A stretch of 21,006 bases of DNA from a virus. Location of the stretch: IMG/VR virus record IMGVR_UViG_3300005253_000596, positions 1 to 21,006 of that record; one strand, 5' to 3'. The translations under genes were made by a program, and so were the position numbers. Shown here one piece after another: positions 10,152 to 20,754 of this stretch (its first letter is position 1; each line of letters starts with the position of its first letter). The notes beneath the pieces were generated by a model, which searched no databases, was not told the origin of the DNA, and worked only from the letters and a program-made list of their open reading frames with translations.

Positions 10152-10163
10152 CTAATAAGTAGG
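10152..10163 (-). promoter_or_regulatory. AT-rich promoter-like element before the PTH2 frame
   Basis: On the minus strand this reads CCTACTTATTAG, directly after the 3' end of the CUA tRNA and about 15 bases before the AGGAG site of the PTH2 leader. It is nearly identical to the element before hsp20. Low certainty. Confidence 0.3.
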
Positions 10164-10236
10164 CCCTCCGGCGGGGTTCAAACCCGCTACAGACGGTTTT
10201 AGAAGCCGTTGCTACACTCAATCGAGCTTCGGAGGG
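10164..10236 (-). tRNA. tRNA with anticodon CUA (putative amber suppressor)
   Basis: A 73-nt tRNA fold: 7-bp acceptor stem (CCCTCCG/CGGAGGG), 5-bp T stem (GCGGG/CCCGC) with TTTGAAC loop, five-base variable loop, and anticodon stem ACGG/CCGT with the loop TTCTAAA. Position 33 is U and positions 34-36 are CUA, which reads UAG. The D arm is atypical: base 8 is A rather than U and the loop lacks a clear GG pair. The 31-39 pair is C-A, as also in the tRNA-Ser(UGA) nearby. CCA is not encoded. The amino acid it would carry cannot be inferred. Confidence 0.7.
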
Positions 10237-10243
10237 ATAGACT

Positions 10244-10316
10244 CCATGCGTAAGGGGTTTCCCAAGATAGCTATTACACCACCTCATCTGCACGATGGCC
10301 CTCGCATGAAGTCAGA
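10244..10316 (-). ncRNA. Candidate small structured RNA
   Basis: The ends of this 73-nt stretch pair in an 11-bp helix with one G-U (GACTTCATGCG with CGCATGGAGTC). Inside, AGGG can pair with CCCCT, CATC with GATG, and GATAGCTATC is self-complementary. It sits between the tmRNA and the CUA tRNA and has no open reading frame. It lacks a T loop, so it is not a normal tRNA; a decayed tRNA or a stable RNA like those of the T4 tRNA cluster are possible. Confidence 0.5.
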
Positions 10317-10342
10317 TTTTTATGGAGCTGGATGAAACGGTA

Positions 10343-10692
10343 TGGAGCCGGAGAGAATCGAACTCTCGTGTTGCAAATGTAGGTACAGCTTTCTACGTGT
10401 GTAGTCACTTGTGAATCTTCGCGGTACGTGGGACAAGCAACAAACCCATCCATCGCTATCCTACAGGATTTCGACTAGGTGTATAGGAGTAATCTAGTCT
10501 AAGTCGGTCGATCGGCGTCCTATCCTTCCCCACGACTATCGGTCAGTAGGACGGGCTGCTAACCTCAGTTATGCAGCCATTGGAAGTGCGTCTGCACTTA
10601 TGTTTTTGATACATTGATTTACGAGAGATCGTATCATTCTCTCGACACGCTTTTCTTTACATTCCATCCACAATCGAAGCCATGTCGGCCCC
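10343..10692 (-). ncRNA. ssrA: tmRNA (ssrA), tag ADALPMAA
   Basis: Transfer-messenger RNA frees stalled ribosomes and tags the unfinished protein for degradation. The ends form the tRNA-like domain: 5' GGGGCCG pairs with 3' CGGCTCC plus A73, and the T arm is GAGAG-TTCGATT-CTCTC. Pseudoknot 1 is complete: stem CGAGAGA/TCTCTCG (10644-10638 with 10628-10622) and TGATAC/GTATCA. Eleven bases after it, the spacing seen in E. coli, comes the resume codon GCA (10595), opening ADALPMAA and a UAA. The stop lies in the loop of helix 5 (GGCTGC/GCAGCC). Further pseudoknot stems follow (GTCCTA/TAGGAC, GACTAG/CTAGTC). CCA is not encoded. It lies ten bases downstream of the ppGpp-hydrolase gene and was probably processed from a shared transcript. 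Confidence 0.93.
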
Positions 10693-10701
10693 TGTACTAT
10701 T

Positions 10702-11154
10702 TTACACTCCGATTTTCTGGTCTATTGCTTTCCACAAAGCGTCAAACTCGCCCTTCTTATATAAGATAGGCTTAAACGTTCGTTGCTGCTTGCGGTACAT
10801 ATCCAATTTTCCACCCTCGGAAACGTTAGCCAGTCTATCACAGAGCTTGACAAAAACTGCATCTTTGTCTGTTCTGATTCTTTTATACGTTGCTTCCTTC
10901 GATGCTTGATTAGAAACCAAGTCAACAATCTTAGCAACTTTGGAACCGAATTTCTTTGCAACGTCATCCTTCGTGACTGACGTATCCTCTATTACATCAT
11001 GTAACCATGCTGCCATCTGGTGTTCATTTGAACCACCAAAACGAACTGCATTCTTATACACATTTTCAAGGTGGTATGAATAAGGCTTACCACCATACCG
11101 TTGACTGCCATGCGCCTTAACGGCGAATTTAGCAGCCTCTTTTACATTACTCAT
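10702..11154 (-). CDS. HD-domain (p)ppGpp hydrolase, Mesh1/SpoT-hydrolase type
   Basis: This 150-residue single-domain protein has the pattern of small alarmone hydrolases: AVKAHGSQRYGGKPYSYHL (about residues 12-30) with the first metal-binding histidine, AAWLHDVIEDT (about 48-58) with the HD pair and the E-D used in catalysis, and VKLCDRLANV (about 101-110) with the last aspartate. It would remove pyrophosphate from ppGpp and thereby blunt the host stringent response (family knowledge). No synthetase domain is present. The ATG lies two bases after the acceptor stem of tRNA-Thr(CGU), with no ribosome binding site, and tmRNA follows. Confidence 0.85.
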   Translation of the reverse strand: MSNVKEAAKFAVKAHGSQRYGGKPYSYHLENVYKNAVRFGGSNEHQMAAWLHDVIEDTSVTKDDVAKKFGSKVAKIVDLVSNQASKEATYKRIRTDKDAVFVKLCDRLANVSEGGKLDMYRKQQRTFKPILYKKGEFDALWKAIDQKIGV

Positions 11155-11156
11155 AA

Positions 11157-11229
11157 GCTACCTCGGGGATTCGGACCCCGGACTTCTCGCTTACGAGGCG
11201 AGCGCTCTGGCCAACTGAGCTAAGGTAGC
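11157..11229 (-). tRNA. tRNA-Thr (CGU)
   Basis: A full 73-nt cloverleaf with acceptor GCTACCT/AGGTAGC, D arm starting TAGCTCAG, anticodon stem CTCGC/GCGAG with loop CTCGTAA, and T arm CGGGG-TCCGAAT-CCCCG. Anticodon CGU reads ACG. CCA is not encoded. The MazG-like gene ends within its 5' end and the alarmone-hydrolase gene starts at its 3' end. Confidence 0.93.
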
Positions 11230-11492
11230 GCAGGTTTATCTATGACCTTTCCCATTTCACCTGTCTCTGCATATCTGAAACACATAGCGGCGACTTGGAC
11301 TATTTCTTTTAGAAGAACATCAAGAGGTTTGTCCGTCTTAATGTCATCCCACATCTCTTCAAATTCTTCTAGAACGATGCTATGAAATTCATGGCGACTC
11401 CACGATTTTCCAGGATGCTTTTTATAAGCACGATCAAGTTCCTCTTCAATCTTTTGAAAAAATCGCTTTCTGCGTTGATTTCTTTCTTGCAC
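11220..11492 (-). CDS. MazG-like nucleotide pyrophosphohydrolase-related protein
   Basis: This 90-residue protein resembles phage MazG-like proteins: FFQKIEEELDRAYKKHPGKSWSRHEFHSIVLEEFEEMWDDIK, with the helical E-E-x-x-E/D cluster (about residues 40-47) that binds metal in all-alpha NTP-PPases, followed by LLKEIVQVAAMCFRYAET. The start is a GTG inside the end of the DUF2061 gene (47-base overlap). The stop is UAG formed by bases 8-10 of tRNA-Thr, so the last codons overlap the tRNA. A role in nucleotide-pool control is likely. Confidence 0.7.
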   Translation of the reverse strand: MQERNQRRKRFFQKIEEELDRAYKKHPGKSWSRHEFHSIVLEEFEEMWDDIKTDKPLDVLLKEIVQVAAMCFRYAETGEMGKVIDKPALP

Positions 11493-11676
11493 GTTCCTTT
11501 CTTTCCCACAACCATTCGTGGACCATAAATATAACTATCTTGATGGTTGCATCAATTCCTACGATGCTTCCTGCAAGAGCCAAGGAACCAGTAACCAAAA
11601 GTGCAACACTTCCTGTCACAATAATTCCTACTACTCGCCATGAAATGGATTTGAGTAGATAGCGTGTAAATTCCAT
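11446..11676 (-). CDS. DUF2061-family small membrane protein
   Basis: This 76-residue protein uses the ATG at 11676, preceded by AAGG; longer versions would run into tRNA-fMet. The core matches DUF2061: LLKSISWRVVGIIVTGSVALLVTG, then AGSIVGIDATIKIVIFMVHEWLWER, with the conserved SWR and K...HE.LW signatures and two membrane segments (about residues 15-35 and 40-58). The molecular role of the family is not known. Confidence 0.8.
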   Translation of the reverse strand: MEFTRYLLKSISWRVVGIIVTGSVALLVTGSLALAGSIVGIDATIKIVIFMVHEWLWERKERARKKSTQKAIFSKD

Positions 11677-11697
11677 ATTATTTGCCTTGAAAATAGG

Positions 11698-11772
11698 GAG
11701 CGGGGGCGGGATTCGAACCACGCGGCCTCCAGGTTATGAGCCTAGCGAGCTACCAGACTGCTCCACCCCGCA
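11698..11772 (-). tRNA. tRNA-Met (CAU), initiator-like
   Basis: Anticodon loop CTCATAA gives CAU. The sequence strongly resembles bacterial tRNA-fMet: GCGGGGTGGAGCAG at the 5' end, an A11-U24 pair in the D stem, and an unpaired 1-72 position (U-U), which are initiator features. However, the anticodon stem has AGG/CCT instead of the three G-C pairs of initiators, and the T stem holds an extra unpaired U (GCG-U-GG against CC-CGC). CCA is not encoded. Confidence 0.8.
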
Positions 11773-11860
11773 TTGATATTTTCCTTATAACAACCCTAAC
11801 ATAGTGAAAAGTGTCAACTTTTTCCTAATAAGACATATTTTTTGAAATCTTTTTACAAAT

Positions 11861-11933
11861 AGCGGGTGTCAGAATCGAACCGACAATACGCCGTGGTTAT
11901 GAGCCACAGTAGCCTACCAAGGCTTGTACCCGC
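11861..11933 (-). tRNA. tRNA (CAU), elongator Met or Ile2
   Basis: Acceptor GCGGGT/ACCCGC, anticodon stem TGTGG/CCACG with loop CTCATAA (CAU), and T arm GTCGG-TTCGATT-CTGAC. The D arm is slightly irregular. Whether the C34 is modified to lysidine (Ile, AUA) or not (Met) cannot be read from sequence alone. CCA is not encoded. Confidence 0.82.
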
Positions 11934-11953
11934 GATGAAATTAATTGATGCAT

Positions 11954-12028
11954 CCTTGGCACCCCACCAAGATTCCAGAACCCAATTTACATGGTATTGG
12001 GTTCGCTAGCCCATGTCGGTGCCACGGA
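11954..12028 (-). ncRNA. Candidate pseudoknotted small RNA
   Basis: A terminal stem of about 10 bp with one mismatch (including GGCACC/GGTGCC) encloses a perfect 9-bp hairpin (GAACCCAAT/ATTGGGTTC, 11978-11986 with 11996-12004). Its loop contains CCATGT, which is complementary to ACATGG 5' of the hairpin (12016-12011), giving a 6-bp pseudoknot. There is no open reading frame. It lies in the 135-base gap between tRNA-Ser(CGA) and a CAU tRNA. No known family is recognised. Confidence 0.55.
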
Positions 12029-12068
12029 CCCCTTCTCCACTCCTACGCTTTTAACGCTACATCAAAAA

Positions 12069-12154
12069 GGAAGCAGTGAGACTCGAACTCACAAAACGGT
12101 GAAACCGTCCTACTTGCTTTCGAAGCAAGCTCCTAATCCAGCCGGATTACTTCC
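12069..12154 (-). tRNA. tRNA-Ser (CGA)
   Basis: A class II tRNA of 86 nt: acceptor GGAAGTA/TGCTTCC, anticodon stem CTTGC/GCAAG with loop TTCGAAA, a long variable arm (ACGGT/ACCGT), and T arm GTGAG-TTCGAGT-CTCAC. CGA reads UCG. CCA is not encoded. Confidence 0.93.
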
Positions 12155-12175
12155 GAGTTTGTAACCTATTAATAA

Positions 12176-12263
12176 GGAAGCGGTGGGATTCGAACCCACA
12201 AAACGTGTTGCCACGCCCTACTAGTTTTCAAGGCTAGCTCCTCATGCCACCCGGATCACTTCC
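12176..12263 (-). tRNA. tRNA-Ser (UGA)
   Basis: A class II tRNA of 88 nt: acceptor GGAAGTG/CGCTTCC, anticodon arm CTAGC/ACTAG with loop CTTGAAA, a long variable arm (CGTG/CACG), and T arm GTGGG-TTCGAAT-CCCAC. UGA reads UCA. It is close in sequence to the adjacent tRNA-Ser(CGA), suggesting tandem duplication and anticodon change. Confidence 0.92.
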
Positions 12264-12269
12264 AAATCA

Positions 12270-12368
12270 TTACTTATGCTTCAAGCGAATCTTCTTACGA
12301 TTCTTTGCTGCGCGTCGTTTCTTCGAGCCCCACTTGCGTCGGCCCCTGTGCTTTTTAGGATATGACAT
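12270..12368 (-). CDS. Very small highly basic protein (32 residues)
   Basis: A 32-residue frame with about half Lys, Arg and His (starts MSYPKKHRGRRKW). AAGGTAA precedes the ATG at proper spacing and overlaps the end of the upstream gene, so it is translationally coupled. It ends seven bases before tRNA-Ser(UGA). Composition suggests nucleic-acid or ribosome binding; this is inference only. Confidence 0.6.
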   Translation of the reverse strand: MSYPKKHRGRRKWGSKKRRAAKNRKKIRLKHK

Positions 12369-12372
12369 TGTA

Positions 12373-12603
12373 TTACCTTTTCTTTTTCTTTGCAGGTTCA
12401 GAAATCCATCGTTTTATCTTTGACCGCATTTCGGTAGACATTGCACGAGTACATATATTACCAATCCCTTTACCGGCTCCCGAAGATTTTTCCACCGCAC
12501 CGGTTCCACGTCTACCTAATCCTTCTACATTCCTATGCGGGAACATTGTTTCCACGTCGCCCTTTTCAGCTCTCTTCATCCACAATAGTTTTCTTCGGCT
12601 CAT
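12373..12603 (-). CDS. Small basic hypothetical protein
   Basis: This 76-residue protein has a basic N-terminus (MSRRKLLWMKR), a Gly-rich middle and a Lys-rich tail (EPAKKKKR). Its ATG overlaps the stop of the HAD gene (ATGA), and its end carries the ribosome binding site of the 32-residue gene, so the three form one coupled unit. Function unknown. Confidence 0.6.
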   Translation of the reverse strand: MSRRKLLWMKRAEKGDVETMFPHRNVEGLGRRGTGAVEKSSGAGKGIGNICTRAMSTEMRSKIKRWISEPAKKKKR

Positions 12604-12950
12604 TCTTGTTCTGGTTTTCCGCGTTCTGTCTTTAAGATTTGCTTCAACGTATCTCTGTAATCACCTTCAAATCTGATTGCTCTGTCATCTATCAATAGTA
12701 GAAAGTCTGGTAACTTCTCATGCGTGACAAACTCGATTGCATCATCCAAGCCATGTTTTACTATCCACTGTTCAATAGCCCGTTTCCCTACGGGATCAGA
12801 TGCTCGAGCGGAAAAGATAGCCAGTGAAAATCCAGCTTTCTGTAACAATCTAATAAACTCAATAGCTCCTGGAATTGGTTCTCCCACATCATCCGGGTCA
12901 GTCCACTCAGTCCATTCGGCGATAGTGCCATCGAAGTCTATTGCTATAAT
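12600..12950 (-). CDS. HAD-superfamily phosphatase with non-standard start
   Basis: The first in-frame ATG/GTG/TTG-type start (GTG at 12887) would omit the catalytic motif. Upstream in the same frame lies IAIDFDGTIAEW, the HAD motif I with nucleophile and general-acid aspartates. Then come motif II-like IFSAR and motif III/IV region KLPDFLLLIDDRAIRFEGD, typical of small HAD hydrolases related to the T4 PNK phosphatase domain. A stop lies 12 codons before motif I with no ATG, GTG or TTG between. The best candidate is ATT at 12950, eight bases after AGAGGG, giving 116 residues. The substrate is unknown; nucleic-acid 3' phosphates are one option. Confidence 0.75.
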   Translation of the reverse strand: MIAIDFDGTIAEWTEWTDPDDVGEPIPGAIEFIRLLQKAGFSLAIFSARASDPVGKRAIEQWIVKHGLDDAIEFVTHEKLPDFLLLIDDRAIRFEGDYRDTLKQILKTERGKPEQE

Positions 12951-12987
12951 TGTCGTAACCCTCTTTTCTTCATTATCTCATAAAAAC

Positions 12988-13071
12988 GGAGCCTACAGGA
13001 TTTGAACCTGTGGTGCCGTATGGCACTCACGCTTTCCAGGCGTGTGCAATAAGCCGCTCTGCCAAAGCTCC
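12988..13071 (-). tRNA. tRNA-Ser (GGA)
   Basis: A class II tRNA of 84 nt: acceptor GGAGC/GCTCC ends, anticodon stem CACGC/GCGTG with loop CTGGAAA, a long variable arm (GTGCC/GGCAC), and T arm ACAGG-TTCAAAT-CCTGT. GGA reads UCC and UCU. G73 follows, as usual for tRNA-Ser. CCA is not encoded. Confidence 0.93.
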
Positions 13072-13283
13072 ATTCATATCACTTTCAAAGTAGACCGATT
13101 AGAACAGCTTTCCATATTTTGACGGCGATCAACCCGCCCGTTCCGTACACGTTTTCCAGGAGCAACCCCGGCGAATGGTGGCGTAAGGTATCAGCATATC
13201 ATACGGCTAGTTCTAAATCCGGTCCAAACCCACAAGTTAACGTGTTGTGGGAACACGCGCGGGGCGACCACTCATTCTATAGT
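13072..13283 (-). ncRNA. Non-coding stretch with H-type pseudoknot, candidate RNA
   Basis: 212 bases between the dCMP deaminase stop and tRNA-Ser(GGA) contain no convincing minus-strand gene. The minus strand holds a compact H-type pseudoknot: CGTGTT/AACACG (13257-13252 with 13246-13241) and CCCAC/GTGGG (13251-13247 with 13233-13229). The stretch looks richer in G+C than the coding neighbours. I cannot define the RNA ends or a family. Confidence 0.4.
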
Positions 13284-13766
13284 TTATACAAAGGAATGAG
13301 ACTCTGTAAGACCTAAGCTTATATCTTCCGGCGTAAAATAGATTACTTTTACTCCTGCTTCTACATATAAGGATTCCGCTAGTTTCATATCTTCGAACCA
13401 TCGTTGTATGAAGGAACTATCTTTATCCCAATACGACACAACCCTTATAATACCAGCCTGAATGACGTGGACTGCGCAACGTGAACAAGACTGTCCAGGC
13501 CAATTGTAGAGAGTATAACCATTCAACTGCTCTCTAGCATTGATAATGGCGTTCAACTCACAATGAATTACCCTCTTATACTTCTCTTCCCGATTGTTTA
13601 ATAATTCTGGTGTATCTTCAATCTGTCTTGGAAATCCATTGAATCCCATTGAAGCAACTGTTTTATCTGATCTGACTATGACTGCACCTGTTTGCGTACT
13701 CGGATCTTTCGACCACGATGAAACCAAGGATGCTAATTCAAGAAACCGTATATCCCATTTTGTCAT
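13284..13766 (-). CDS. Deoxycytidylate (dCMP) deaminase
   Basis: This 160-residue zinc enzyme converts dCMP to dUMP and feeds thymidylate synthesis. Visible signatures are DPSTQTGAVIV (about residues 21-31), VIHCELNAI (about 67-75, HxE with the catalytic glutamate and a zinc histidine) and SCSRCAVHVI (about 94-103, the two zinc cysteines). The usual PCxxC proline is replaced. A GGAAGG site precedes the ATG. Together with the MazG-like and HAD proteins it points to control of the nucleotide pool. Confidence 0.9.
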   Translation of the reverse strand: MTKWDIRFLELASLVSSWSKDPSTQTGAVIVRSDKTVASMGFNGFPRQIEDTPELLNNREEKYKRVIHCELNAIINAREQLNGYTLYNWPGQSCSRCAVHVIQAGIIRVVSYWDKDSSFIQRWFEDMKLAESLYVEAGVKVIYFTPEDISLGLTESHSFV

Positions 13767-13782
13767 GTTTGCCTTCCATTAT

Positions 13783-13855
13783 GCTCACTATAGGACTTGA
13801 ACCTATGGCCTCTTCGATGTCACCGAAGCGCTCTGACCAACTGAGCTAAGCGAGC
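13783..13855 (-). tRNA. tRNA-Val (GAC)
   Basis: A 73-nt cloverleaf: acceptor GCTCGCT/AGTGAGC, D arm TAGCTCAGTTGGTCAGAG, anticodon stem CTTCG/CGAAG with loop GTGACAT (GAC, reads GUC and GUU), and T arm ATAGG-TTCAAGT-CCTAT. The upstream protein gene ends inside its first ten bases. CCA is not encoded. Confidence 0.93.
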
Positions 13856-14247
13856 GTTGTTCTCTTATGAAATTCTTCAGCGTTCTTTTCTACCTCAACC
13901 ATCCGGTCTTTATGCTCTTGGAGTTCGCTGGTATCTGAAAGCTTATTAGGATTGCTTTCGTCTTGAAGATATTCTAACGTCGTTAAAAATTCTTTGTCTG
14001 CCTCATTCGACGTGGCTCGAAGGTCACGCGAATAAAGAAATCTTCGTGCGTGTTCAATTCTAGTGCGTTCCTCTTCTGCTGTTTCCGGCACGATCACTCT
14101 TGTAGAATAATCTACAATATACTTCCACTGTTTGCCCGCATTTTTCCAATTTCTTTTGTGCCGCCACACAAGATACTTAGAATATAGTCTATTACTACCA
14201 ACGACGACAAGGCTACCCACAAACATTCCCAATGCAAATTCTAACAT
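13846..14247 (-). CDS. Membrane-anchored coiled-coil hypothetical protein
   Basis: This 133-residue protein has one N-terminal membrane segment (about residues 3-20) followed by a basic patch and a charged helical region. The start follows TGGAGG, downstream of the RNase P RNA. Its UAG stop is formed by bases 8-10 of tRNA-Val, so the last codons overlap that tRNA. Function unknown. Confidence 0.7.
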   Translation of the reverse strand: MLEFALGMFVGSLVVVGSNRLYSKYLVWRHKRNWKNAGKQWKYIVDYSTRVIVPETAEEERTRIEHARRFLYSRDLRATSNEADKEFLTTLEYLQDESNPNKLSDTSELQEHKDRMVEVEKNAEEFHKRTTLA

Positions 14248-14267
14248 AAAACCTCCACGATTAGATT

Positions 14268-14566
14268 GGTGATCTCATAGCCAGGATTTAGTTTTATGCC
14301 ATCATCTGTCTCACGAAGAAACTGGTCTCCGCGGCCTTTCGGCTGCCACAACCCGACTATCATAGGCTGAAAGTTTACCTAAGTCTGTTTGTGTTGCACT
14401 GCCCACATGGTATTTGTGGTTAGGCGAATATGGTGGTAATTTTTATGACCTTTACTCTTATTATCGGGACGGTCAAGCGAGAACCACATTCTCCCACATC
14501 TTTCGGCAGTGTCCTGAGCTTCCTCTATTCCTATGGATTCATAAGAACAGCGATGGCTCGATCACC
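14268..14566 (-). ncRNA. rnpB: RNase P RNA (rnpB), compact form
   Basis: RNase P RNA is the ribozyme that removes 5' leaders from tRNA precursors. The core helices are present. P1 is GGTGATC/GATCACC, P2 is GCCATC/GATGGC, and P3 is an 11-bp hairpin. P4 is AGC-U-CAGGA paired with TCCTGGCT, with the bulged U (14517) exactly where the universal P4 bulge lies. Conserved stretches also fit: GAGGAAGCTCAGGAC (region I), CAGTGCAACA (region II, 14401-14392), AGGTAAAC (III), AGATGATGG (IV) and AAATCCTGGCTA (V). At about 299 nt it is shorter than the E. coli RNA. It starts three bases after the tRNA-Ile and ends just before the next gene's leader. Confidence 0.92.
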
Positions 14567-14569
14567 AGT

Positions 14570-14643
14570 CCGCCTTGAAAGATTTGAACTTTCGACCCCG
14601 CACTTATCAGGCGCGTGCTCTAACCAGACTGAGCTAAAGGCGG
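14570..14643 (-). tRNA. tRNA-Ile (GAU)
   Basis: A 74-nt cloverleaf: acceptor CCGCCTT/AAGGCGG, D arm TAGCTCAGTCTGGTTAGAG, anticodon stem CGCGC/GTGCG with loop CTGATAA (GAU, reads AUC and AUU), and T arm GAAAG-TTCAAAT-CTTTC. It abuts a protein stop codon at its 5' end and the RNase P RNA at its 3' end. CCA is not encoded. Confidence 0.94.
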
Positions 14644-14811
14644 TTAAAAATCAACATATATTATTCTTGAGACCAATGGTATCAAGATGAAAATATAAAA
14701 TAATGGAGACACAAGTGCTCCAAGCGATATTATGGTCGCCGCTGGAATAAAGAAAGTTAAAAACCTTCTTGTATCTGGTAGACCATCATACCATTTATGT
14801 AACTTTTTCAT
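14644..14811 (-). CDS. Small two-segment membrane protein
   Basis: This 55-residue protein has a basic N-terminus (MKKLHKWYDG) and two hydrophobic stretches (about residues 17-32 and 34-50). The ATG at 14811 lies two bases past the acceptor stem of tRNA-Ser(GCU) and has no ribosome binding site. The TAA ends exactly one base before tRNA-Ile. It therefore fills the whole gap between two tRNAs. Upstream extensions would only translate the tRNA. Function unknown. Confidence 0.6.
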   Translation of the reverse strand: MKKLHKWYDGLPDTRRFLTFFIPAATIISLGALVSPLFYIFILIPLVSRIIYVDF

Positions 14812-14813
14812 AC

Positions 14814-14899
14814 GGAAACGGTGGGGTTCGAACCCACGGAACACTTGCATGTCCTACTGGTTTAGCAAACCAGCTCCTCAGGCCATCCGGATCATTTCC
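14814..14899 (-). tRNA. tRNA-Ser (GCU)
   Basis: A class II tRNA of 86 nt: acceptor GGAAATG/CGTTTCC with G73, anticodon stem CTGGT/ACCAG with loop TTGCTAA (GCU, reads AGC and AGU), a long variable arm, and T arm GTGGG-TTCGAAC-CCCAC. The sulfotransferase gene ends within its acceptor strand. CCA is not encoded. Confidence 0.93.
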
Positions 14900-15542
14900 C
14901 AAACTCAAAACCAAATGCTTCTATATCTTCTGCGTAATATTCAGCTACAAGGTCAACAATCTTTGAATCTTTGTAAAGCTCTGTATAGTCTCTTTCACTT
15001 TCAGGAAGTAGGCGCGGTCCCGAATGTCCGTGTAACTCATCTAAACAACCCACCTTGGTGCGAAGTTCTTCCCAATCCTTGGCTAATGTCTCAAAACGTA
15101 AAACAAAATCAAGTGTATTCAAATCTTTGGGAAGAAATCGTATACACGGTGCCCAATGATGATTTCTACAACCTTCATTAAACATACGTATAACAAAATC
15201 TTCAAACGACTTTATTTTTCCAAACAATGCATTACCAATATCAAGCCGGCTCTTGTATGCCTTACGGTATGATACTAATAGATAATTAGAAACTACACGT
15301 TTCCACGGATTTCTTACTACTGTAAAGGAAAAACAATCTTCCGGAACGTCGTTTTCGTTTCCCACATCACAAGGTCTAAATAGTCCGGCTATGCGAGGCG
15401 CATCAAACGATTCAAGAGTTTTTTTAATACTAGAACTTGCACACCGTGGAGTTTCGTAATAAACTACACGTTCCTTCTCATTGTAATGAACAAAAGAAAC
15501 ATTAGGACATATACACGGTTTAAAATCACAATCCCACTTCAT
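14892..15542 (-). CDS. Sulfotransferase family protein
   Basis: This 216-residue protein has the two PAPS-binding signatures of sulfotransferases. These are TPRCASSSIKKTL (about residues 31-43, the 5'-phosphosulfate-binding loop) and FTVVRNPWKRVVSNYL (about 73-88, the 3'-phosphate-binding RNP segment). The family transfers sulfate from PAPS to sugars or other acceptors. Phage members could modify capsular or surface glycans. The UGA stop lies inside the acceptor strand of tRNA-Ser(GCU). Confidence 0.85.
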   Translation of the reverse strand: MKWDCDFKPCICPNVSFVHYNEKERVVYYETPRCASSSIKKTLESFDAPRIAGLFRPCDVGNENDVPEDCFSFTVVRNPWKRVVSNYLLVSYRKAYKSRLDIGNALFGKIKSFEDFVIRMFNEGCRNHHWAPCIRFLPKDLNTLDFVLRFETLAKDWEELRTKVGCLDELHGHSGPRLLPESERDYTELYKDSKIVDLVAEYYAEDIEAFGFEFGK

Positions 15543-15627
15543 TTACAACCCTGCTTCCATAGAGATAAGAAGCGTGAGGCGGGCAATTTTGCCGAGTAAA
15601 CTTTTTTGAATGACTGATAAGGTCTTT

Positions 15628-15768
15628 CTACTTACTTAAGCTTCTACTTTTCTTACCTGGACGATTCTGAGGTAGTAGTGTTTGAGCTGTAAGTTTAGTG
15701 TCCCTACCAAATGCATTAAGCCGTCCTACAGCACGTTCGCCCTCCAGAGTAGGACTGGGCCGCCGCAT
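15628..15768 (-). CDS. Possible 46-residue basic protein
   Basis: A frame from the ATG at 15768 encodes a basic, Arg/Lys/Leu-rich peptide (starts MRRPSPTLEGERAVG, ends GKKSRSLSK) and stops at UAG. AAAGG directly abuts the ATG, so the spacing is poor. A 7-bp helix (GTCCTAC/GTAGGAC) lies inside it, so the stretch could instead be a structured RNA. The remaining bases from 15543 to 15627 hold only the leader of the sulfotransferase gene. Confidence 0.35.
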   Translation of the reverse strand: MRRPSPTLEGERAVGRLNAFGRDTKLTAQTLLPQNRPGKKSRSLSK

Positions 15769-15800
15769 CCTTTAGTTTACTGATTTCACCTCACGACAAA

Positions 15801-15874
15801 TATCCCTAGAGGGACTCGAACCCCCGACTTCTCCGTTCGTAGCGGAGCACTCTGTCCAGCTGAGCTATAGGGAC
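15801..15874 (-). tRNA. tRNA-Arg (ACG)
   Basis: A 74-nt cloverleaf including A73: acceptor GTCCCTA/TAGGGAT, D arm TAGCTCAGCTGGACAGAG, anticodon stem CTCCG/CGGAG with loop CTACGAA (ACG; A34 would need deamination to inosine to read CGU, CGC and CGA), and T arm GGGGG-TTCGAGT-CCCTC. CCA is not encoded. Confidence 0.93.
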
Positions 15875-15879
15875 ATGAA

Positions 15880-16861
15880 AGGTTGAGACTATACCTTTTC
15901 TGGTGCCACTTTTGTCGGATTATCCACCCAGCGTCCCCGCTGAGGGTTCCCGCTTTGTCCACATACCCATCGGATATGTTTGACACCAAGACTGCCTTTT
16001 TTTTCCAGTAGTGGGGGCTTAGCCACTATATCGACAGGCGTGCTCGATGTTTCGATTTCCGTGAGCCTTGCGGGCTCTTAATGGCGGCTAAACCAAACGT
16101 GCATTTCTACATCAACGGTGCGATTCCCTTGGGAGGAATCTCCCGCCCCTGTTACTCCGAAGAGTCAAGGGTTTAAGCCTTTTTTCTTCCTGTCGCTGAG
16201 TCGGTCTTTCCATTTTTGGGGATAAGCGTCGGGATTGAACCGACAACCGTTCGTCATCAATACGAATGCTCTACCAATTGAGCTAGATTATCTAACCTAC
16301 CTATGAAGTGCCGACTCGGTGATTCCAATTCCTTTTGGGAATAAGAATGTCACACTCCATTGCTGACGTTCACTGACGCTACTAGTCCTGACTTCAAGAG
16401 ACACAGGCCAATTAACTCCACTCTGATATAGCAACTCTCGTCGCCGTGGAATCGACCCTTCCCTATGATCATACTGTTAAGTTCTTGTGCTTCCACACTT
16501 GAACAAAACAACCGTATTCCTTACCAATCTACCGTCGCGTAGGGGTGTATAGGGAGCCCGGCACTACCCGTCAGACTTCACAATCCTCGCTTCCGTTCGC
16601 TACCCGACCTTTCGGAAGGATCATCACTACTAGGGCGATAGGAGTGTGTTTTTCCCCTAACTACGCTTCCAGCCTATTTCCAACTCTTTCGAGCTGAAAC
16701 TGCGACATCGCTGCCGCAATGGTGGAACTTGATTGGATGGACCATCCGAAGATGGTGCGGGTTGGTAGGCCTCACCGCCTTACACCAGTTGCCTAGTGCT
16801 ATCTTTTGCCCGAAGGCTAGGAACCCAAACGTCCCTATAATTCAATTGTCAAAGAGCGAAG
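15880..16861 (-). ncRNA. Giant structured RNA, GOLLD/ROOL-like, with embedded tRNA
   Basis: Nearly 1 kb downstream of a consensus promoter lacks any convincing gene but is dense in RNA helices on the minus strand. Examples are hairpins closed by UUCG (GCC-TTCG-GGC at 16820s; ACCATC-TTCG-GATGGT at 16740s), a GNRA-type CAGCG-GGGA-CGCTG, CATATCC/GGGTATG with a 3-base loop, and ATTCC-CAAAA-GGAAT. A complete tRNA sits inside one arm, closed by GAGTCGG/CCGACTC. Size, phage setting, nearby tRNAs and an inserted tRNA match the GOLLD class (ROOL is the alternative). I cannot run the covariance model, and the 3' end is approximate. Confidence 0.65.
16221..16292 (-). tRNA. tRNA embedded in the giant RNA, anticodon UGA by structure
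   Basis: A 72-nt class I cloverleaf: acceptor GATAATC/GCTTATC with one mismatch, D arm GCTCAATTGGTAGAGC, perfect anticodon stem TTCGT/ACGAA with loop ATTGATG, and T arm GTCGG-TTCAATC-CCGAC. By position the anticodon is UGA (Ser codon UCA), yet there is no long variable arm, and base 37 is U rather than a purine. Uniquely here, C73 is followed by an encoded CCA (16219-16217). Its decoding identity is doubtful. Confidence 0.75.
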
Positions 16862-16867
16862 GTTTCA

Positions 16868-16896
16868 AATATACTACAAAACCTCTAGTTTGTCAA
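16868..16896 (-). promoter_or_regulatory. Consensus sigma70 promoter for the giant RNA
   Basis: Minus strand TTGACA (16896-16891), a 17-base spacer and TATATT (16873-16868). It lies 14 bases past the stop of the exonuclease gene and points into the non-coding region, with a predicted start near 16861. This is the same promoter type as before the sigma-factor and kinase operons. Confidence 0.88.
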
Positions 16897-16909
16897 GCTT
16901 TTCTGATAA

Positions 16910-18867: not shown

Positions 18868-19050
18868 TCATTCTTGTTTATCTAACTTACAATCCAGAAT
18901 TTCTTGAAGCCGTTTTGCAATTGACTCAATGTTTGCTATCCCTATGCTTCCATCTTCATCATAATTAGCAGCTCCGACAAAATCGTCTCCATACCACAAC
19001 TCAACACTCTCATATGAGTCTGAGTAAATTAGCTTAAGATCGTTACTCAT
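18868..19050 (-). CDS. Small acidic hypothetical protein
   Basis: I choose the ATG at 19050, which overlaps the upstream stop as ATGA. The 60-residue product is acidic (SDSYESVELWYGDD; NYDEDGSIG) and ends three bases before tRNA-Arg(UCG). No known family. Confidence 0.6.
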   Translation of the reverse strand: MSNDLKLIYSDSYESVELWYGDDFVGAANYDEDGSIGIANIESIAKRLQEILDCKLDKQE

Positions 19051-19223
19051 ACTTTTCTTGGCGTGCATTCTGTCCCTCGTTTAATTTTTGACCAAGACTT
19101 AATGTCCTGTTCTCTCTTGCCGATAGCCCACTTCAAAATTGGAGCGGCGTCAATACAAACACCATTCTCAACATCTATACCGGCACAGAAATATCCTGTG
19201 TCTATTTGTATAACCTTTTCCAT
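19047..19223 (-). CDS. Conserved phage hypothetical protein (58 residues)
   Basis: The ATG at 19223 starts a 58-residue protein, IQIDTGYFCAGIDVENGVCIDAAPILKWAIGK. The pattern 'Y-F-x-AG-x-x-V-x-x-G-V ... APIL-W-x-GK' is, as I recall, widespread among small phage proteins of unknown role. The start directly follows a tRNA-like element and lacks a ribosome binding site. Its stop overlaps the next start. Confidence 0.65.
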   Translation of the reverse strand: MEKVIQIDTGYFCAGIDVENGVCIDAAPILKWAIGKREQDIKSWSKIKRGTECTPRKV

Positions 19224-19225
19224 AG

Positions 19226-19326
19226 TTGTTGGAGAGGGATTCAAACCCCCACGAAGTCCTCGCGGATCCTTCTGCTGGTTTTCAAGTGGCTATCCCTTAC
19301 GAGATAACCACTCTACTAATCAACCG
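19226..19326 (-). tRNA. Aberrant tRNA-like element, Ser-type, possibly decayed
   Basis: The 3' half is tRNA-like: T arm GGGGG-TTTGAAT-CCCTC and a long variable arm ending in a GCGA tetraloop, preceded by CTTGAAA, the loop found in tRNA-Ser(UGA). The 5' half does not fit. Only four acceptor pairs form (GTTG/CAAC). The anticodon stem has no 5' partner. Instead a 10-bp hairpin (AGTGGTTATC/GATAGCCACT) with loop TCGTAAGG fills the place of the D and anticodon 5' strands. It is either a broken tRNA or one with an inserted hairpin. Confidence 0.4.
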
Positions 19327-19354
19327 TGTCTGTCAATTTCACCATCCAACAAAA

Positions 19355-19798: not shown

Positions 19799-20044
19799 TT
19801 ATCTCATTATGTCAGACGGCGGAGTTTCATCTACAACTTCAACTGCGTCCAAACCATCTACAAGCCCATCACCAAAACTTCCATTGAGGAGATTCTCAAA
19901 CTTAACAACAATGAACCTTTTATCGTTGTCTTGATGAATAATTTCACCCAACATGCCTTTCGGAATCGCATCATCCTGAATTTTTAGGTTAATGTCGAAA
20001 GAGCGAATGTCTCTGGTGGATACGACTTTATCTCTAACTGCCAT
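19799..20044 (-). CDS. Small beta-rich hypothetical protein
   Basis: This 81-residue protein contains DAIPKGMLGEIIHQDNDKRFIVVKFEN (about residues 26-52), a pattern like small SH3/KOW-type barrels and similar in layout to the protein at 18047-18277. The C-terminus is acidic. It is followed three bases later by the lipoprotein gene. Function unknown. Confidence 0.65.
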   Translation of the reverse strand: MAVRDKVVSTRDIRSFDINLKIQDDAIPKGMLGEIIHQDNDKRFIVVKFENLLNGSFGDGLVDGLDAVEVVDETPPSDIMR

Positions 20045-20643: not shown

Positions 20644-20746
20644 AGAGAGCGAAGCAATGTTCTCATGCGGTGAGGATTCGAACCCCGCCCATACGGCGTG
20701 AACATTCCGCCGGTAAGTCTACCAAAAGTCCGCTACTTCGCTCTCT
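20644..20746 (-). ncRNA. tRNA-like RNA inside an 11-bp terminal helix
   Basis: The ends pair perfectly over 11 bp (AGAGAGCGAAG/CTTCGCTCTCT). Inside are a D-arm-like hairpin (GGTA/TACC), an anticodon-arm-like hairpin (CGGCG/CGCCG with the 9-base loop GAATGTTCA), and a T arm with loop TTCGAAT on an imperfect stem. The inner acceptor would be only GCGG/CCGC. No normal anticodon loop with U33 and a purine at 37 forms, so I do not name an isotype. It is either a damaged tRNA or a tRNA mimic. Confidence 0.45.
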
Positions 20747-20754
20747 AACTATTC

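Follow-up and report, generated by a model that had tools for sequence, protein, structure and literature searches.

Protein genes packed against tRNAs in a tRNA-rich phage fragment, with a plausible but unproven route to leaderless messages

Can a phage use its tRNAs to set the ends of its messenger RNAs (mRNAs)? The question is raised by a 21,006-base stretch of DNA that is the complete IMG/VR viral record IMGVR_UViG_3300005253_000596 (the whole stretch is called the window here), in which protein genes abut or overlap tRNAs on the minus strand, the strand that carries the genes treated here. An earlier note on this DNA had proposed that excision of the tRNAs would release leaderless mRNAs downstream and truncate those upstream, much as in mitochondrial genomes. 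The tight packing of tRNAs and genes is real, and it recurs in unrelated viral contigs. Leaderless expression by tRNA excision is plausible but unproven. The explanation that is probably correct is a dense, one-strand phage array of tRNAs and open reading frames (ORFs) under extreme compaction, in which tRNA maturation would expose downstream starts and remove upstream stops. The features at the tight junctions are as follows.

14892-15542, minus strand: sulfotransferase gene, 216 aa (Pfam Sulfotransfer_2 / PF03567, 3.2e-14; phrog_3347, 1.5e-14)
14813-14899, minus strand: tRNA-Ser(GCT), Rfam bounds (ARAGORN, 14901-14812)
14644-14811, minus strand: 55-aa ORF, 55 codons, a predicted small membrane protein filling the gap between tRNA-Ser and tRNA-Ile
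14568-14643, minus strand: tRNA-Ile(GAT) (ARAGORN, Rfam, and sequence reading)
13846-14247, minus strand: 133-aa gene, function unknown, with its own Shine-Dalgarno (SD) sequence GGAGGT (ORF, SD scan, and codon preference)
13782-13855, minus strand: tRNA-Val(GAC) (ARAGORN, Rfam, and sequence reading)
11220-11492, minus strand: 90-aa gene, phrog_2831, function unknown, GTG start (PHROG match and codon preference)
11156-11229, minus strand: tRNA-Thr(CGT), discriminator U (ARAGORN, Rfam, and sequence reading)
10702-11154, minus strand: HD-domain phosphohydrolase gene, 150 aa (Pfam HD_4, 2.9e-11; phrog_990, 4e-37; codon preference)

The earlier note had placed three gene ends inside the 5' ends of tRNAs, and a base-by-base reading agrees with it. 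The 90-aa gene reads GCG CTA CCT TAG, and its UAG stop (11222-11220) is bases 8-10 of tRNA-Thr (GCTACCT, then TAG). The 133-aa gene reads ACG CTC GCT TAG, with its UAG (13848-13846) at bases 8-10 of tRNA-Val, and the sulfotransferase gene ends at a UGA (14894-14892) that forms bases 6-8 of tRNA-Ser (GGAAA-TGA-TCC). The two starts said to lie two bases past an acceptor stem, 11154 and 14811, are also where they were claimed to be, each ATG being one base after the discriminator: tRNA-Thr runs out as AGGTAGC-T-T-ATG and tRNA-Ser as CGTTTCC-G-T-ATG, with a single U in between. The further claim that both starts have no ribosome binding site stands at 14811, which has no SD sequence, but falls at 11154, where an SD-like GAGGT lies 5 nt upstream of the ATG, within the acceptor 3' strand of tRNA-Thr. 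The 55-aa ORF does occupy the entire space between its two tRNAs, since its UAA (14646-14644) touches base 1 of tRNA-Ile (14643).

The overlapping genes are coding: the genes at 10702, 11220, 13846, and 14892 have a codon preference of 0.19-0.22 in their own frame, whereas no other frame exceeds 0.14, and two of them have strong Pfam matches. To gauge how unusual such overlaps are, a survey took a common D-arm pattern as its anchor and covered 684 tRNAs from other viral loci. An upstream ORF of at least 90 aa overlaps the 5' end of 3 of 13 tRNAs here and of 8 of 684 in the survey (Fisher p 8e-4). The comparison is post hoc, because this feature is what the window was selected for, and several of the survey overlaps are spurious. 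The stop codon itself is common property: TAG stands at bases 8-10 in 373 of the 684 survey tRNAs, and some stop in 400, since nearly all tRNAs have U8 and A9-G10 is common. The idea that UAG at these bases is a special signal was rejected as generic on this count. A UAG read as sense was rejected too; UAG ends 7 of the 38 called genes, and there is no suppressor anticodon among the ARAGORN tRNAs. A stop codon built into bases 8-10 would make overlaps of genes with tRNAs easy to evolve.

Is the same layout found in other phages? At least 10 genes in unrelated viral contigs, several with family matches, start 0-2 bases after a tRNA, as found by a scan for a T-arm followed by an ATG 0-2 nt after the discriminator. 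Those with a family match include a terminase small subunit (locus L170), a phrog_1238 member (L234), a phrog_3704 member (L182, 5e-54), a deoxynucleoside monophosphate kinase (L202, 7e-49), and a phosphoesterase (L231, 2e-48). In locus L253 there is an exact twin of the 14644-14811 arrangement, with an ATG one nt past tRNA-Ile and a 112-aa membrane-like ORF whose TAA abuts tRNA-Ser. In L127, tRNA-Thr is followed by one U and the ATG of a 52-aa ORF, which ends at a UGA within the next tRNA. Gene ends inside tRNAs recur as well: a GIY-YIG homing endonuclease gene in L120 (phrog_314, 2.3e-44) ends at a UAG formed by bases 8-10 of tRNA-Met, an annotated HNH gene of phage Mendera (L163) has a 39-nt overlap with tRNA-Arg, and a 179-aa ORF of Rhizobium phage RHph_Y65 (L164, 12119-12658) ends at bases 4-6 of tRNA-Ser. 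This last ORF is absent from the GenBank record, perhaps dropped for overlapping a tRNA. Overlaps in L130, L071, L107, and L058 were rejected as spurious frames running through tRNAs, and so was MYOV011v1_p0243 of Vibrio phage 6E35.1a, which ends at base 10 of tRNA-Leu and crosses another tRNA-like stretch.

Abutting starts are nevertheless rare. In a sample of 667 tRNAs that was not anchored on starts, none of 54 genes (at least 80 aa, ATG, within 45 nt of a tRNA) began at 0-2 nt, and most began at 13-35 nt. Among the matches listed, 77 ATGs stand at offsets 0-2, and 10 of them open an ORF of at least 100 aa, compared with 4 of the 125 ATGs at offsets 3-9 (p=0.010); for ORFs of at least 60 aa the counts are 14 of 77 and 11 of 125 (p=0.077), and an SD match of at least 4 nt is missing in 13 of the 14 at offsets 0-2. 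These counts use fixed offsets after one T-arm consensus and pool two scans, the numbers are small, and GC-rich loci may hold chance ORFs. They suggest two modes of starting a gene after a tRNA, either with a normal leader able to hold an SD sequence or with no leader.

The window has ordinary junctions as well as tight ones. Downstream of tRNA-Val the start of the next gene is ordinary:

13284-13766, minus strand: dCMP deaminase gene (protein family matches), the contrast case

A 15-nt leader containing GGAAGG precedes its ATG at 13766, and the junctions at 20044 and 18696 are likewise ordinary. Overall, 14 of the 38 called starts in the window have no SD match of at least 4 nt (some of these starts may be mis-set), so the absence of an SD sequence is not diagnostic of 11154 and 14811. 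The tight class gains a third close start:

19226-19351, minus strand: tRNA-Leu-like RNA, 126 nt (read by hand; fold z -3.8)
19047-19223, minus strand: 58-aa ORF with its ATG 2 nt past the tRNA-Leu-like RNA

The tRNA-Leu-like RNA has a perfect 7-bp acceptor (TGTTGGA/TCCAACA), a D arm, a variable arm, and a T arm, but its anticodon region carries an additional long hairpin (AGTGGTTATC..GATAGCCACT). It possibly contains an inserted element or small intron, or it may be a degenerate tRNA.

How might such a layout arise and be used? In the preferred account, the spacers between tRNAs and small genes would have eroded until tRNA ends came to serve as gene boundaries. The cluster would be cotranscribed, probably from a promoter near 16.88 kb together with upstream read-through. 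RNase P cleaves before base 1 of a tRNA, and RNase Z cleaves after the discriminator of CCA-less tRNAs. No encoded CCA was seen after the window tRNAs on reading the minus strand, and the host RNase P and RNase Z would presumably excise them. At 11154 and 14811 this would leave RNAs beginning 5'-U-AUG with an accessible start; before processing, that start would lie next to the folded acceptor stem. At 11220, 13846, and 14892 maturation of the tRNA would delete the upstream stop codon. This means that a single RNA molecule could yield the tRNA or an upstream mRNA that ends in its stop codon, but not both. More speculatively, ribosomes on the truncated, non-stop mRNAs could be rescued by the phage's own tmRNA, about 450 bases downstream of tRNA-Thr:

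10343-10692, minus strand: tmRNA, tag ADALPMAA (ARAGORN; Rfam RF00023, 113 bits), part of the tRNA cluster

Predicted folding is consistent with a change in the start sites upon cutting. To open positions -13 to +13 in the folded precursor costs 12.4 kcal/mol at 11154 and 9.0 at 14811 (5.2-12.0 in ten analogues), and once the RNA is cut at the discriminator, the figure for the start region is 0.2-0.4 kcal/mol at the two sites. In the predicted precursor fold, pairing within the acceptor and T stems ties up both the SD sequence that precedes 11154 and the 30S landing site ahead of 14811. The fold of the whole tRNA-Thr region has no excess stability (z 0.0) and was not used. One could go further and consider true tRNA punctuation, in which excision is the main source of mRNAs here, leaderless downstream and with defined 3' ends upstream, as in mitochondria. 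The close starts at 11154, 14811, and 19223, the exact filling of spacers at 14644-14811 and in L253, the greater share of long ORFs at offsets 0-2 than at 3-9 among the matches listed, and the inaccessibility of the start region in the precursor all speak for it. On the other hand, excision would strip three upstream genes of the whole stop codon, 11154 retains an SD sequence in the precursor, and leaders of 13-35 nt are kept by most tRNA-adjacent genes elsewhere and by several here. So strict a form of the model seems unlikely. The earlier note's proposal that excision yields leaderless downstream mRNAs is partly supported: the anatomy fits U-AUG ends at 11154 and 14811, but many junctions are ordinary and 11154 has its SD sequence in the precursor.

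Several observations weigh against the preferred account. The start at 11154 keeps its SD sequence in the precursor, and opening the leader and first codons alone costs 0.9-1.2 kcal/mol there at both 11154 and 14811. The accessibility difference comes mainly from upstream bases and is partly trivial, since those 13 nt are gone after cutting. In L202 and L224 (offset 2) the ATG overlaps the encoded CCA, so excision would destroy the start, and a gene packed closely against a tRNA is therefore not in every case one that excision could release. The 55-aa ORF has a codon preference of 0.094 in frame and 0.127 and 0.134 in the other frames. Lastly, relatives were sought with five window proteins and the whole-window DNA; the dCMP deaminase alone gave some (39 loci), the five nearest of which share no other window gene, and no syntenic relative was found by protein or phage DNA search.

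Some of these points favor pure compaction, in which ribosomes translate polycistronic RNA that has not been processed, or rely on read-through and reinitiation, and a different set of transcripts supplies the tRNAs. GAGGT stands at the right distance from the ATG at 11154, 14 of 38 starts manage without an SD sequence anyway, the AUG region alone opens for about 1 kcal/mol in the precursor, and there are the CCA-overlapping ATGs elsewhere. Such an account has to contend with the pairing of the SD sequence at 11154 and of the 30S landing site at 14811 (9-12 kcal/mol), and with the lower frequency of long ORFs at starts 3-9 nt past tRNAs than at 0-2 nt among the matches listed. It has a substantial chance of being right, although rather less than an even one. 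The weights given to the alternatives overlap with that of the preferred account, which combines compaction with partial release, and they do not sum to one.

The codon preference of the 55-aa ORF raises another doubt, namely whether all of the small ORFs are genes. The 55-aa and 58-aa ORFs could be chance frames, or the 55-aa frame, which stays open to an ATG at 14850 inside the tRNA, could start there. Its one family match is weak (phrog_5864, 0.005), and no relatives were found in viral contigs. Yet an ORF fitted the 169-nt spacer between tRNA-Ser and tRNA-Ile exactly in just 107 of 200,000 shuffles, its sequence, on inspection, reads as a two-helix membrane protein, and L253 has the same geometry with a 112-aa ORF. 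It is rather unlikely that some of the small ORFs are noncoding.

The remaining alternative, separate internal promoters with normal leaders, turns on the promoter scan.

16868-16896, minus strand: sigma-70-like promoter TTGACA-17-TATATT, 11/12, upstream of a GOLLD-like RNA and the tRNA cluster

Several 9/12 promoter-like matches do lie in the cluster, but the count of sigma-70-like matches in 10300-16900 is 12 against a shuffle expectation of 10.8, and the site at 16896-16868 alone stands out. No promoter-like site better than chance was found at 11154 or 14811, and a leader of either gene would need to contain the tRNA itself. Internal promoters are very improbable as an explanation, and the strong upstream site fits cotranscription of the cluster, as the compaction account with partial release would have it, without being proof.

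The rest of the window places these junctions in context.

Whole window: 13 tRNA genes (ARAGORN)
10163-10236, 12069-12154, and 12176-12263: further tRNAs (Rfam)
15880-16362, perhaps to about 16860, minus strand: GOLLD-like RNA (143.5 bits, just below the gathering score of 150)

The source is a tRNA-rich phage, of which the window is a fragment. Many tRNAs of differing specificity lie with small ORFs on a single strand of a viral contig, which is what characterizes a phage tRNA array. The window DNA had no match among 50,697 phage records. Its proteins matched HD phosphohydrolase, dCMP deaminase, sulfotransferase, Hsp20, HNH and GIY-YIG endonucleases, and a polynucleotide-kinase-like protein, with PHROG matches for dCMP deaminase, homing and HNH endonucleases, and polynucleotide kinase; no capsid, portal, or large terminase was found among the window proteins scanned. 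The genes appear to be an auxiliary set of the sort carried by large tailed phages.

Some side observations concern structured RNAs on the minus strand. A tRNA-Arg(ACG) lies directly downstream of the GOLLD-like RNA, another tRNA (16217-16292) lies inside it, and a 5' part of it that is less conserved may occupy the roughly 500 nt from the promoter at 16896-16868 to 16362. The tRNA-Ser(CGA) and tRNA-Ser(TGA) at 12069-12154 and 12176-12263 were missed by ARAGORN and matched by the Rfam tRNA-Sec model; they share with tRNA-Ser(GCT) an A at position 8, in place of U8, and a T at 9. Near 20660-20750, a tRNA-like RNA lies within a helix of about 10 bp (AGAGAGCGAAG/CTTCGCTCTCT) and has no ARAGORN or Rfam call. 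The spacers at 11936-12060, 13080-13283, and 14364-14567 have no clear ORFs and possibly hold more structured RNAs. At 12271-12367 there is a very basic 32-aa ORF (MSYPKKHRGRRKWGSKKRRAAKNRKKIRLKHK) that ends 7 nt short of tRNA-Ser(TGA). Also on this strand, a HAD/phrog_1238-like gene (12600-12962) directly follows tRNA-Ser(GGA) with no ATG, GTG, or TTG where its start is expected; GAAAAGAGGG precedes ACG ACA ATT ATA GCA, which may reflect a non-canonical start, a frameshift, or decay. The phrog_1238 member in L234 begins one nt after tRNA-Lys.

If transcripts are indeed cut at these tRNAs, the locus would be an independent phage counterpart of mitochondrial punctuation and would tie leaderless initiation to tRNA processing in a testable system. 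A wider claim, that some tRNA-rich phages use excision as a regular mechanism of expression, with leaderless mRNAs downstream, a trade between stop codon and tRNA upstream, and rescue by tmRNA, is tentative and on present evidence improbable. No paper on phage tRNA punctuation or on leaderless mRNA from tRNA excision was found in the open-access literature. Even if the transcripts are not cut in this way, the survey indicates that phage genes can end inside tRNAs or begin right after them, and annotators may miss those that overlap, the 179-aa ORF missing from the RHph_Y65 record being an example.

How, then, does the window compare with known systems? The tRNA punctuation model of mitochondria, reportedly set out by Ojala et al. 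in 1981, has tRNAs between protein genes with near-zero spacers, starts right after tRNAs, and mRNA ends that excision sets, all of which the window resembles to the extent that excision would set mRNA ends here too. The likeness drawn by the earlier note holds for the spacer-less flanks, which are found at 11154, 11220, 13846, 14644-14811, and 14892, though not at every junction. It breaks down at the stops. Mitochondrial genes end in an incomplete U or UA that polyadenylation finishes, whereas the window has complete stops directly before base 1 or wholly inside the tRNA, with no U or UA left behind. Unlike mitochondria, the window also has bacterial-type SD sites elsewhere in the cluster and tight packing at only some junctions, and its tRNA processing is a prediction. 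Lacking the incomplete stop codons that define the mitochondrial system, the window does not belong to it.

Another parallel comes from Thermococcus kodakarensis, in which a tRNA-Lys lies upstream of a protein gene, TK0306, in one transcript, the tRNA being within a 159-nt 5'-untranslated region (PMC4247193); in the window the start codon is 1 nt past the tRNA. The window also resembles the tRNA arrays of Stenotrophomonas phage Mendera, Rhizobium phage RHph_Y65, and Vibrio phage 6E35.1a, which carry about 19-25 tRNAs on one strand, interspersed with small ORFs and genes of homing endonucleases, and have short spacers with an overlap here and there. The conservative account is that the window is a phage tRNA array under extreme compaction, a layout found repeatedly, and the window exceeds the arrays sampled in having three substantial genes that end in tRNAs and two or three that begin no more than 2 nt after one.

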